NCBI RefSeq assembly: GCF_004342425.1
Contig: NZ_SLWQ01000003.1
Span: 186,001-250,000, forward strand
Source of the DNA: Dokdonella fugitiva
GTDB taxonomy: Bacteria; Pseudomonadota; Gammaproteobacteria; Xanthomonadales; Rhodanobacteraceae
Length of the DNA stretch: 64,000 nt
Direction: 5' to 3'
Shown here: positions 2,975 to 54,867 of the stretch, piece by piece
Numbering within the stretch: the first letter of the stretch is position 1
Layout of the letters: each line of letters begins with the position of its first letter
The notes under the pieces: generated by a model
The model's database searches: none
What the model was told of the DNA's origin: nothing
What the model saw: the letters and a program-made list of their open reading frames with translations, nothing else
Translations under genes and position numbers: made by a program

Positions 2975-3834
2975 TGCGCGCGTCGCGCACGCTCGTCGGC
3001 GCGTGCGCGCTCGTGCTGGCCTTCGCGTGCACCGGTGCGCGGCCCTCGTTCGCCGTGGCGCCGGGCGAGGCGCCGATCGACGCCTATCCCGACGTCGCTG
3101 CCGCGTACTGGGTCGAACTCGACGGCCGGCCGTTGTGGGCCGGCCGTGCCGATGCGCGACTGCCGATGGCGAGCCTCGCCAAGCTCATGACCGCGCTGGT
3201 CGCGGTCGAGCAGGGTGATCTCGACGCCTGGGCCGCGGTGTCCGCCGCAGCCGCGGCGGAAACCGGCACGCGCATCGGCTTGCGCCGCGGCGAGCGCGTG
3301 ACGCGGCGCGATCTCCTGCACGCGGCGATGGTGCGCTCGGCCAACGACGCCTGCCGCGCGCTCGCCGACGCGGTCGGCGCGACGATCGACGCGCGCGATG
3401 CGACTGGCGCGTTCGTCGCGCGCATGAACGCGCGTGCAACCGCGCTCGGCCTCGCCGACACGCATTACGCGAATCCGTGCGGCCATGACGATCCGGCGCA
3501 ATACACGAGTGCGCGCGACCTCGCCGTGCTCGCGCGCGCGGTGCTGGCCGAGCCGACGCTCGCCGACATCGCGCAGCACCGGGACCTCCGTATCACGACC
3601 GATCGCGGCCGCGCACTGGCCGCGCGCTCGACGAATGCATTGCTCGACGGCCTGCCCGGCGCGCGTGGCCTCAAGACGGGCACCACGCCCGCGGCCGGAC
3701 GTTGCCTCGTCGCCGTCGTCGAACGCGACGGCCATCGCGTGCTCGCCGTGCTGCTGCACGCGCCCGAGCGCTGGTGGGACAGCGTCGCGCTGGTCGAACT
3801 CGCGTTCGAAGCCGCATCGCCGCCGCGCCCGTAG
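2974..3834 (+). CDS. D-alanyl-D-alanine carboxypeptidase family protein
   Basis: A 286-aa penicillin-binding-protein-type serine peptidase (S11 family) that would trim pentapeptide stems of peptidoglycan in the periplasm. All three active-site motifs are present: SLAK (Ser67, Lys70), SAN (Ser122-Asn124) and KTGT (Lys234). A signal peptide occupies about residues 1-27. It lacks the roughly 100-residue C-terminal beta domain and amphipathic anchor of PBP5/DacA, so it is a short PBP7/DacD-like or DacF-like version and probably soluble. ATG 2974 is chosen because it overlaps the upstream TGA and directly precedes the signal peptide; the frame stays open further upstream but only as a shadow of the previous gene. 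Confidence 0.88.
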   Translation: MRASRTLVGACALVLAFACTGARPSFAVAPGEAPIDAYPDVAAAYWVELDGRPLWAGRADARLPMASLAKLMTALVAVEQGDLDAWAAVSAAAAAETGTRIGLRRGERVTRRDLLHAAMVRSANDACRALADAVGATIDARDATGAFVARMNARATALGLADTHYANPCGHDDPAQYTSARDLAVLARAVLAEPTLADIAQHRDLRITTDRGRALAARSTNALLDGLPGARGLKTGTTPAAGRCLVAVVERDGHRVLAVLLHAPERWWDSVALVELAFEAASPPRP

Positions 3835-5894: not shown

Positions 5895-7706
5895 TCAGCT
5901 TCGCGCGGCCTTGCCGGCGAGCAGGGCGCGCAGTTCCTGCTTTTCCTCGTCGCTGAGCGGGCCCTGCGCCTGCTTGCGGGTGAGGTCGTCGAGGCGCTGC
6001 TGCGCGGTCTGGCGCTCGAGCTGGGCGATCGCGTCGACGAACTCCGCACGCGCCTCGCTCTCGCCGCCGGGGAAGTCCACCACGGCGAGCTTCTGCAGCG
6101 CCTTCGCCTCCTCGCGTTCGGCGAAATGCTCGAGCAGCGCGCCGGTCGTGAGGTTCGCGCGCGCGCGGCACAACGCGATGAGTTCGACCAGGAGCGGGAT
6201 GCCCGGCTGGCGCAGCCCGGCGAACGACCACGGCGGTTCGAGCGCGAGCGCGAGCGCGGGCCGCTGCACGAGCAGGGTGATCGCCGCGCGCACGAGCGAG
6301 CGCTGCGCGGGCTTCGCGCCGCGCGGCTTCGACGGCACGTCCGAGGGTGGCGCGGCGACCTGCACGCGCACGCCGGTCGACTTGTCGAGCTCGGCGAGCA
6401 TGAGGTCACGGAATGCCCCGTCGGGGATCTGCGCGAGCAGTGGCCGCGCGCGTTCGGCGAGGCGCGCACGGCCGTCGAGCGAGCCGAGGTTCACGTCCTT
6501 GCCGAGTTCGGCGAAGAAGAACTCGCCCAGTGGCGTCGCCTCCCTGAGGCGCTGCTCGAAGCCGGCAAGGCCCTCCTTGCGCACGAGCGTGTCGGGGTCC
6601 TCGCCATCGGGCAGGAACAGGAACAGTGCCTGGCGGCCGTCGCGCATGCGCGGCAGCACGGACTCGACCGCGCGCCACGCGGCCTGGCGACCGGCGCGAT
6701 CGCCGTCGAAGCAGAAGTAGACGTCCGCGCACTGGCGGAACAGGATCTCTGCATGGTCGCGCGTGGTCGCGGTGCCGAGCGTCGCGACCGCCTGCGGCAC
6801 GCCGAACTGGTGCAGGCTGATCACGTCCATGTAGCCCTCGACGACGATCAGGCGCGGGATCTTCGCGTGCGCCTCGCGCACCTGCCAGAGGCCGAACAGT
6901 TCGCGGCCCTTGTGGAACAGCGGCGTCTCGGGCGAGTTGAGGTACTTTGGTCCTTCAGCCTTGTCCGATGCTTCCTTCGGAGCGGCGTCCTGTCGAGAAG
7001 TGCGGGCAGGGATGCCCGCTTCTCGACTTTCGCGATCAGGACGATCGCTGGGAATGATCCTCCCGCCGAAGGCGATCGTGCGGCCGCGCCGGTCGAGGAT
7101 CGGGAACATCACGCGGTTGCGGAAGCGGTCGTACTTCGAGCCGCGCTCGCCGCTCGTGAGCATGCCCGCCTTCTCGAGCAGCGCGATGCGCTGCGCGTTG
7201 GTGCCGAGCGCGTTCTTCAGCGCGTCCCAGGCATCGGGCGCGAAGCCGAGGTTGAAGCGCGCGAGCGTCGACGCATCGAGGCCGCGGCCTTCGAAGTACG
7301 CGCTCGCGCGATCGCTCGCCTCGAGCTGGCGGCGGTAGAACGCCGCGGCTGCGTCGAGCAGCTTGTACAGGTCGGTGCTGTCCTCGCGCGGCGCCTCGCG
7401 CCCGCCTTCGTACGGCACCTTGAGGCCGACGCGGCCGGCGAGTTCCTCGACCGCGTCGGGGAACTCGAGGCGGTCGTAGTTCATGAGGAAGCCGATCGCA
7501 CTGCCGTGCGCGCCGCAGCCGAAGCAGTGGTAGAACTGCTTGGCCGGGCTCACGGTGAACGACGGCGAGCGCTCGTCGTGGAACGGGCAGCGCGCCGACC
7601 AGTCGCGCCCGGCCTTCTTCAGCGGCACGCGCTCCTGGATCACGTCGACGATGTCGACGCGCGCGAGCAGGTCGTCGATGAACTTTTCGGGGATGCGGCC
7701 GGCCAT
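5895..7706 (-). CDS. dnaG: DNA primase with an in-frame insertion
   Basis: About 603 aa; makes RNA primers for replication. In order: CHCC zinc-binding domain (CPFH...CFGC, residues about 36-61), primase core with the YFEGRGL and FGGRII blocks, TOPRIM motifs VVEGYMD and DGDRAGR, and a C-terminal DnaB-interacting helical domain ending in an Arg/Lys-rich tail. The start at 7706 gives the usual MAGRIP opening; an ATG at 7718 would add MLSP. Between FGGRII and [15 protein letters not shown], where homologues usually have only a few residues, there is a charged insert of about 33 residues (SDRPDRE...KAEG), partly encoded by a palindromic element (6992-7027). The frame stays open and both flanks are intact, so the gene looks functional. 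Confidence 0.95.
6992..7027. repeat. Palindromic element inside dnaG
   Basis: Arms GTCGAGAAG-TG-CGGGCA and its complement TGCCCG-CTTCTCGAC form a 15-bp stem with a 2-nt bulge and a 4-nt loop. It resembles REP-type intergenic palindromes but is inside a coding region, in frame, encoding [12 protein letters not shown]. No second copy was found in this window. Confidence 0.6.
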
Positions 7707-7755
7707 GGGGCTCAGCATGCCATGCAGGATCGACTGTCGCCGGCGCGCCAGCGGA

Positions 7756-18063: not shown

Positions 18064-18291
18064 ACGCCTTTCGCCTGCGCTTGCAAATCCGCGGTGCCGT
18101 TCAACGGCGAAAGGCGTGGAACACGAAGGACGCGAAGGAAGGCGGAAGAGGGAAAGAGCCAAAGCTTGAAACACGGAGCACGCGGAGAAGAGCGAATGCC
18201 TTCTCCGTGTGCTCCGTGGGCTCCGTGTTTCAATCTCTCTCTTCGCTCTCTCGTGTCCTTCGTGTTTCAGGCTTTCGCTTCTCTTTGCCTC
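18064..18291. repeat. Nested inverted-repeat element
   Basis: A 273-nt gap between two minus-strand genes holds layered repeats of lower GC than the surroundings. A 12-bp pair ACGCCTTTCGCC / GGCGAAAGGCGT sits at 18064-18075 and 18106-18117. Then purine-rich GGAACACGAAGGACGCGAAG (18118-18137) pairs with the complement at 18251-18268, and GAAACACGGAGCACGCGGAGAAG (18168-18190, key unit CACGGAG) pairs with 18200-18231, where the CTCCGTG unit occurs three times. The whole could form a long hairpin with an AGCGAATGC loop. No ORF with coding character is present. Confidence 0.65.
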
Positions 18292-53179: not shown

Positions 53180-54867
53180 CGCAGCGTGCCGATGCCGCCG
53201 CGCCGACGCCGCTGTACGCGCCGTTGCCGCCGGGATGCCGTGCGCTGCGCGTGGTCGCCCTCGTCGATCGCGAGGTCGTGCCCGCGTGGATCGCCGAGGC
53301 GCTCGCCGCGCTGGCGGCCGACGACGCCTGCGAACTGGTCGCGGTGCTGCGTGCGCCGCTGCCGCCGCCGCGGCCGCGCCATCGCGCGATCGACGCGTTC
53401 GTGCGCATCGATGCCGCGCTCGCCGGCGCGGCGCGCAAGGCGACCGCCGCGGTCGCCTTGCGCGATCGCCTCGCCGGCGTGCCGCTGCACGACGTCGTCG
53501 CGCGCGAGGATGCCGGCGGGCTCGCGCTCGACGAGCGCGCGGCGGCGCTGCTGCGCGCGCTCGAAGCCGACCTGCTGCTGGGTTTCGGCCTGCCGCCGCC
53601 GACGCCGGCGGTGCGCGCGCTCGCGCGTCGTGGCGCCTGGTTCCTCGAGCGCGACGCCACCGACGCACGCCGGCACGGCCTGCGCCATCTCGACGCGTTG
53701 CGCCGCGGCGACGCGGTGAGCCGCGGCGGCGTCGTCATGCACGACGGCGACGGCTGGCGCCTGTGCGGCGGCGACGACTGGAGCGCGACCGCGCAACTCT
53801 CGTTCGCGCGCAACCGCGCGTACCAGTTGCTGCGCGTGCCAGCGATCCTCGTGCGCCTGCTGCGCCATCTCGCCGCGGGCCAAGCGCCGACGGGCGAAAC
53901 AGTGCCCGCGTTCACGCCACCCGGCGTGATCGCGACCGTGCTGCTCGCGTTGCGCCTCGCCGCACGCGCGCTGCGCCGGCATCTGCCGCGCCTCGGGCGC
54001 GCCGAGGACTGGGTGCTCGCGGCGCGCCGCACCGACGCGCCGCTCGACCCCGCACGACCGGATGCGCAGGGGTTGCGCGTGCTGGCGACGCCGCCCGGCC
54101 GGTTCTGGGCCGACCCGTCGCTCGTCCACCATGAAGGGCGCGACTGGCTGTTCGTCGAGGAGTATCCCTACGCGACGCGGCGCGGGCGCATCGCGGTCGC
54201 CGAGCTCGACGCCACGCTCGCGCCGATAAACGTGCGCACGGTGTTCGACGAACCATGGCACCTGTCCTACCCGCTCGTGTACGAATGGCAGGGCGAGCTC
54301 TGGCTCACGGTCGAGTCCTCCGCGGCACGCACGTTCGCATTGCATCGTGCGATCGAATTCCCGGCGCGCTGGGCGTTCGCGGCGGAACTGCTGCGCGGCC
54401 GCAACGCGGTCGACGGTACCCTGCATCATGACGGCACGCACTGGTACCTGTTCGCCTGCATCAGCGAGAGCCCGCTCGACGTCGACCGCCGCGTGTGGAC
54501 CGACCTGTTCCTGTTCGTCGCCGACTCGCCGCTCGGACCGTGGCGCGCGCATCCGGCCAATCCGCTCCTCAGCGACGTGCGTCGCGCGCGACCGGCCGGC
54601 AAGCTGTTCGCGCACGAGGGGCGCCTGATCCGTCCCGCGCAGGATTGCAGCGTCGACTACGGCTACGCGGTGGTCTTCAACGAAGTCGTCGCGCTCGATC
54701 CACAGCGCTACGAGGAGCGGCCGCTCGGTCGCATCGAACCCGACTGGCTGCGCGGCCTGCGCGGCTGCCACACCTACAACCGCGGCGCCGGCATCGAGAT
54801 CGTCGACGGCAAGCGGCTCGTGCCGCGCCGGCACCTGCGCGCCGCGACGACACCGGAGTCCCCGTGA
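53176..54867 (+). CDS. Formyltransferase-like/beta-propeller fusion protein
   Basis: 563 aa. Residues about 20-240 have a formyltransferase-N-like Rossmann outline (LRVVALVDREVVPAWIAEAL..., DLLLGFGLPPP..., GAWFLERD, LRHLDALRRGD) but the HxSLLP-type catalytic site is not visible. Residues about 300-560 resemble a GH43-like five-bladed propeller of the GINT1 N-terminal type (FWADPSLVHHEGRDWLFVEEY, DGTLHHDGTHWYLF, NPLLSDVRRARPAGKLF, QDCSVDYGYAVVF). This fusion occurs in bacterial glycan loci. Role here unproven: sugar modification or transfer onto the peptide product is plausible, given the GalE next door. Overlaps neighbours by 4 nt. Confidence 0.65.
   Translation: MTQRADAAAPTPLYAPLPPGCRALRVVALVDREVVPAWIAEALAALAADDACELVAVLRAPLPPPRPRHRAIDAFVRIDAALAGAARKATAAVALRDRLAGVPLHDVVAREDAGGLALDERAAALLRALEADLLLGFGLPPPTPAVRALARRGAWFLERDATDARRHGLRHLDALRRGDAVSRGGVVMHDGDGWRLCGGDDWSATAQLSFARNRAYQLLRVPAILVRLLRHLAAGQAPTGETVPAFTPPGVIATVLLALRLAARALRRHLPRLGRAEDWVLAARRTDAPLDPARPDAQGLRVLATPPGRFWADPSLVHHEGRDWLFVEEYPYATRRGRIAVAELDATLAPINVRTVFDEPWHLSYPLVYEWQGELWLTVESSAARTFALHRAIEFPARWAFAAELLRGRNAVDGTLHHDGTHWYLFACISESPLDVDRRVWTDLFLFVADSPLGPWRAHPANPLLSDVRRARPAGKLFAHEGRLIRPAQDCSVDYGYAVVFNEVVALDPQRYEERPLGRIEPDWLRGLRGCHTYNRGAGIEIVDGKRLVPRRHLRAATTPESP

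Follow-up and report, generated by a model that had tools for sequence, protein, structure and literature searches.

A two-hairpin REP element in frame within a primase loop and found in two orientations among relatives in the Lysobacterales

GTAG REPs are mobilised by RAYT transposases, and CGTC REPs are recognised by a terminal CGTC, a stem of 8-9 bp and a loop of 4-5 nt. Palindromes within coding sequences were first described as a peculiarity of Rickettsia, intragenic REPs being described later (PMC2229807, PMC3733652). The Rickettsia palindromic elements (RPEs) have 105-146 bp and reside in frame inside protein genes, and the MITE-like repeats of the ERIC/RU-1 type, with about 100-200 bp, contain open reading frames and long stem-loops between their ends (PMC2229807). 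A 2013 list covers GTAG and CGTC REPs located inside genes, many of which serve replication and repair (PMC3733652), and recB was reported to carry different REPs at about the same position in two species of Xanthomonas (PMC3733652, section 15); dnaG, primase and MutS are not mentioned in the main text of that paper. Given the RPEs and the 2013 list, neither the principle of an in-frame REP nor a leaning to repair genes is new. In the open-licence literature we found no report of the two-hairpin family described here in dnaG, nor of the repeated occupancy of one primase loop in two orientations. As far as this literature shows, what is new is the family itself, the finding of it in dnaG, mutS and nuoG, and a single loop that, among close relatives, is taken by orientation A, taken by orientation B or left empty in turn.

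The stretch of DNA analysed in this work (the window) has 64 kb, and an in-frame palindrome had been predicted within its primase gene. The features of this locus are as follows.

5895-7718, minus strand: dnaG, DNA primase of 607 aa (open reading frame, Pfam DnaG domains and solved primases).
6945-7058, minus strand: expanded DnaG loop of 38 codons, between FGGR and YLNSPET (comparison with the loops of 120 relatives).
6988-7049, minus strand: bipartite REP element of 62 bp in orientation A (model R1, 73.5 bits, E 7.9e-13 in its own genome, the element being one of the 26 sequences behind the model).
6992-7027, minus strand: the palindrome first reported, which is the second hairpin (S2) with its lower stem, core GCGGGC-ATCCCT-GCCCGC at 7002-7019.
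7020-7031, minus strand: linker GAAAGTCGAGAA (family consensus GAAGATCAAGAA), the final 8 nt of which make up the S2 lower stem in this copy.
7032-7048, minus strand: first hairpin (S1), GCGATC-GTCCT-GATCGC, from the alignment, covarying with GCGCGC/GCGCGC in relatives.
6945-6987, minus strand: remainder of the expanded loop, without a match to the REP model (sequence).

The DnaG of the window displays the Pfam domains Zn_ribbon_DnaG, DNAG_N, Toprim and DnaB-binding, and the palindrome lies in frame in its gene and codes for 12 residues, in agreement with the original prediction. The predicted position and 15-bp stem were likewise borne out, with the layout GTCGAGAA, GCGGGCA, loop, TGCCCGC and TTCTCGAC, that is, blocks of 8 and 7 bp with a 2-nt bulge, and the region folded as RNA gave a z of -4.4 against 200 shuffles. 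What was pictured as a single palindrome is, however, only half of an element that reaches 7049. The stretch between FGGR and YLNSPET, which lies in the RNA-polymerase domain of primase, comprises 38 residues in the window and 8 in the Escherichia coli primase chain 1dd9 (VLGNDTPK); relatives with an empty loop have 8-11 residues at the same place, so the insertion into a normally short loop is real and the excess amounts to ~29 residues, whereas the 33 residues originally given depend on where the count starts. The loop was expected to be exposed, and this is consistent with the short loop in solved primases and with pLDDT values below 50 at residues 226-272, in an AlphaFold model that is shallow (mean pLDDT 67, 9 sequences) and that was used solely for the disorder of the insert.

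A scan for hairpins of at least 15 bp with at most one bulge of 1-2 nt retrieved 2 in the 64-kb window; 20 first-order Markov sequences had 0.10 on average and never more than 1. The other strong hairpin of the scan, at 53432-53464, is an inverted repeat of 16 bp without mismatch, its arms 1 nt apart. At 18163-18236, inverted repeats of 19-25 nt made up of CACGGAG/CTCCGTG units lie nested in one another, with complementarities of 95% and 88%.

The element belongs to a REP family that is widespread in this group of Lysobacterales. Its plan in the dnaG genes of relatives consists of S1 (GCGCGC-nTCCT-GCGCGC or GCGATC-nTCCT-GATCGC), a linker near GAAGATCAAGAA, S2 (GCGGGC-ATCCCT-GCCCGC) and then ACTTCTCAA; copies outside dnaG follow the same plan with different stem letters, GCGGCC-ATCCAT-GGCCGC being the commonest. 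In the alignment of 26 sequences, 92.6% of the cells are paired and 38 cells are changed on both sides, as measured on the same sequences that built the model; this level of pairing was reached by none of 500 shuffles, and structures slid along the alignment had at most 50.4% of their cells paired. With at most 150 candidates scored per genome, matches to the covariance model at E<=0.01 were found in 22 of 24 genomes of the family (4-114 per genome), and none at that threshold in G025 and G058. Matches to the 16 of the 26 training copies that come from dnaG are expected by construction. Units are spaced ~63 bp apart in several genomes, and a search of Rfam returned no match for the element in 7 sources.

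Copy number in the genome of the window is low, with 8 matches at E<=0.01, the dnaG copy being by far the best. The palindrome with up to 3 mismatches had no second copy in the whole 4.28-Mb genome, and blastn with 121 bases retrieved nothing else convincing there. These exact and near-exact patterns had suggested a single-copy element, a reading overturned by the covariance model; the searches gave that appearance because the stems vary, which also accounts for the few copies retrieved by a fixed-linker pattern over 233 genomes. The original prediction had named the lack of any other copy in the genome as grounds for rejecting it: near-identical copies are indeed lacking, but members of the family are present, and the REP-like nature that it proposed is upheld by their distribution and by the covarying stems. 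A different palindromic block, AGCGGGCTTCCTTGCCCGCTGA, was seen in this genome at two loci (L007, C5:206222; L009, C11:50395), within a longer shared repeat.

DnaG was detected in 226 of the 233 genomes of the family. We compared the loops of 120 loci, one genome each, from this and other families of the order (one further locus yielded no loop); this set favours long loops, as it joins genomes with a match through the loop to part of the rest, and 40 of its 120 loops have 8-11 residues. The element was scored in 49 of the 120 dnaG loci (28/61 and 21/59), in orientation A or in orientation B, and in none of the 40 short loops when these were scored with the model. Thus, the insertion as such stands, yet it is no one-off event of this genome, many genera carrying the element in the same loop in two orientations. 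Orientation A, that of the window, encodes a peptide of 16 residues, and orientation B encodes GEGSPVLDPRAQDARK. Loop types were assigned by text patterns, by which 39 rows are A under the loose pattern and 26 under the strict one, and 32 of the 120 loops are not strictly typable as A, B or empty. A CGTC-type REP, ATTCCCGC-AGTC-GCGGGAAT-GACG, was observed in the same primase loop of G008 (L071), with an imperfect relative of it in that of G010 (L073).

The family also occurs in frame in other conserved genes. Sixty copies were read outside dnaG, of which 59 are distinct (L317 is L372), and 27 open frames that pass through copies or lie next to them were examined with Pfam; in this set, which favours top-scoring copies, 12 distinct copies are found within a Pfam-supported gene or at its end. 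These include nuoG (G129, G153, G133), mutS (G016, G006), recJ (G013) and gcvP (G037), and in four genomes from two genera (G220, G028, G133, G216; L372, L318, L378, L384) a class IV aminotransferase has the element as its C-terminal tail, as does an aconitase C-terminal-domain protein of G133. Most of the remaining frames had no Pfam match, and in two that did (L321, L363) the copy is upstream of the domain. The REDQEA frame is used in DnaG-A, MutS, NuoG-A, GcvP and the C-terminal tails, and another frame in the RecJ of G013. MutS and NuoG regions were then searched in the 233 genomes and the fetched loci read: the model recognised the element in 23 of the 30 loci for mutS and in 15 of the 23 for nuoG, the latter with 12 copies in A and 3 in B. 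The MutS of the window's genome has no element at that loop. Relative to the sampled generic copies, 18 of the 23 mutS copies and 11 of the 12 nuoG A copies are nearer to the same locus elsewhere than to any generic copy. Tandem units within a long open frame were observed in nuoG (G137:C21, about 3207-3407; four pattern hits 60 nt apart) and in mutS (G216:C23:6895-7020; two model hits 63 nt apart).

With the loop excluded from the DnaG tree, 43 changes among five loop classes were counted over 120 rows, and 17 among A, B and empty over 51 rows, where the starred branches force at least 10 for A. The genome of the window carries A and its nearest relative, G014, carries B (SH-aLRT 98), their DnaG proteins being 91% identical. 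Differing sister pairs in the 51-row tree comprise G252 A/G244 B (support 99/91), G037 A/G247 B (99/90), G216 A/G232 B (100/100) and G220 A/G237 empty (100/100). For orientation A, the distance between elements follows that of third positions in the flanks (Spearman 0.78 over 153 non-independent pairs), which fits plain inheritance; for orientation B, also over non-independent pairs, the correlation is weak (0.25). Among 132 cross-genus A pairs, 7 have elements differing by no more than 5% with flank third positions differing by at least 20%, a combination found in none of 79 B pairs. No clear exchanged tract was seen in the flanks, the nearest 30 nt being 0.857 identical in different-state pairs and 0.875 in same-state pairs (0.902 and 0.904 in the far flanks), and any exchange would therefore need to be very short. 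Horizontal transfer of dnaG in long tracts left no signal in these flanks and was rejected. We conclude that inheritance and replacement both occur at the dnaG loop.

Integrating these findings, the palindrome is likely a hairpin of the REP family carried as a translated passenger in a tolerant primase loop, with A and B as old dnaG lineages that are inherited but often switched. The element would be transcribed and translated along with its host gene. The frames in use have no stop codons, both the A and the B peptide are polar, and the encoded peptide is probably disordered, which together would allow the enzyme to keep working; as far as the structural model indicates, the insert may be tolerated as a passenger in a predicted disordered stretch. 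With less certainty, A and B would represent two element lineages specific to dnaG, long inherited, with many switches and losses among close relatives. Replacement would most likely proceed by very short exchange through conserved sequence on both sides, with an occasional new insertion, and copies would then be eroded by hairpin deletion and point decay. A bolder version, possible although doubtful, takes the coding palindrome as a swappable segment, in which the DnaG, MutS and NuoG loops would alternate among A, B and nothing as cassettes pass between species through conserved flanks.

Repeated fresh insertion into the tolerant loop, from the REP pool of each genome, is rather unlikely as the general explanation, even though single cases speak for it: in G013, the closest relative of the B copy in dnaG, differing from it by 6%, is the copy that the same genome has in recJ, units are found in tandem and in frame in dnaG (two A units in G107) as well as in the mutS and nuoG loci described above, and the same primase loop of G008 and G010 is occupied by a different, CGTC-type palindrome. 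However, it is locus and orientation that group the dnaG copies, rather than the genome of origin. Between genomes, mean differences are 0.155 for A-A and 0.180 for B-B, and the A-B value (0.326) is as large as those to unrelated copies (0.327 for A and 0.370 for B, against a sample of generic copies), from which this grouping follows. The G013 copy is an exception to it, and the dnaG copy of the window is a near tie, at 0.177 from another dnaG copy and 0.190 from an unrelated genomic copy. In addition, the second stems GCGGGC (A) and CCGGCG (B) are rare among the other copies read, again a sample of generic ones.

A single ancient insertion followed by vertical inheritance, in-place inversion and many deletions is improbable and already strained. 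The agreement of orientation-A distances with gene distances would suit it, as would the many decayed loops, several dnaG loops being shortened, eroded or partly deleted. Inversion of A into B was nonetheless discarded on the second stem, which in typical B copies is CCGGCG/CGCCGG and is therefore not the reverse complement of A; moreover, A and B are as distant from each other as from unrelated copies, and they alternate between sisters on supported branches. Maintenance of the hairpin through some role in dnaG at the level of DNA or mRNA, such as transcript control, is very unlikely: the coding-strand hairpin is very stable and perfect stem pairing persists in many copies, but close relatives have empty loops or broken stems, and unrelated genes carry the same family. 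The view that a low-complexity loop simply diverged and came to hold a palindrome by chance, for which one might cite the Ala/Pro/Asp-rich loops without a clear palindrome in some members of the genus (L045-L048, L050), is refuted by the recurrence of the same two-hairpin sequence across genera and genes and by the rarity of strong hairpins in Markov sequences, and retains practically no probability.

Regarding the mode of entry, a target-site duplication was considered from short AAAAGT-like repeats beside some B copies and rejected by inspection, as removing one repeat gives no in-frame empty site. Mobilisation by RAYT was also rejected, the repeats being uncorrelated with PF01797 (Y1/RAYT-type transposase): this domain was found in 16 of 21 genomes, is absent in the repeat-bearing G206, G247, G107, G151 and G153, and is present in the repeat-free G025 and G058.

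In many genera, members of one family repeatedly occupy the same loops of three proteins: a primase, a protein of mismatch repair and a subunit of the respiratory chain. Two of the three loops hold the element in either orientation, and close relatives have empty sites. These natural pairs with and without the element offer a means to study the entry of small palindromes into genes, the reasons why genes for replication and repair carry them, and whether the inserts are neutral. In these bacteria, selfish-looking DNA seems to have become part of working proteins, some of them encoded by vital genes, time after time; if the swappable-segment version were true, such DNA would be a traded, fast-changing piece of essential enzymes.

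Compared with known systems, the element resembles the ERIC/RU-1-type MITE-like repeats in being small, non-autonomous and fused in frame to genes, and differs from them in its two separate hairpins (PMC2229807). With the GTAG and CGTC REPs it shares a short intragenic palindrome and many hosts among genes of DNA synthesis and repair (PMC3733652); unlike in these, neither end of its consensus bears a GTAG or CGTC tag, the features that define a CGTC REP being found in the separate dnaG palindrome of G008 and not in the two-hairpin element. Several similar palindromic copies per genome, as expected of a REP, are present in 22 of the 24 genomes. The likeness to RPEs proposed in the original prediction is apt as an analogy: by description only, both are palindromic repeats translated in frame within conserved proteins, here DnaG, MutS, NuoG, RecJ, GcvP and two C-terminal tails. 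In contrast to RPEs, the element of the Lysobacterales has 62 bp, two hairpins and a fixed linker, and takes one loop repeatedly in both orientations.
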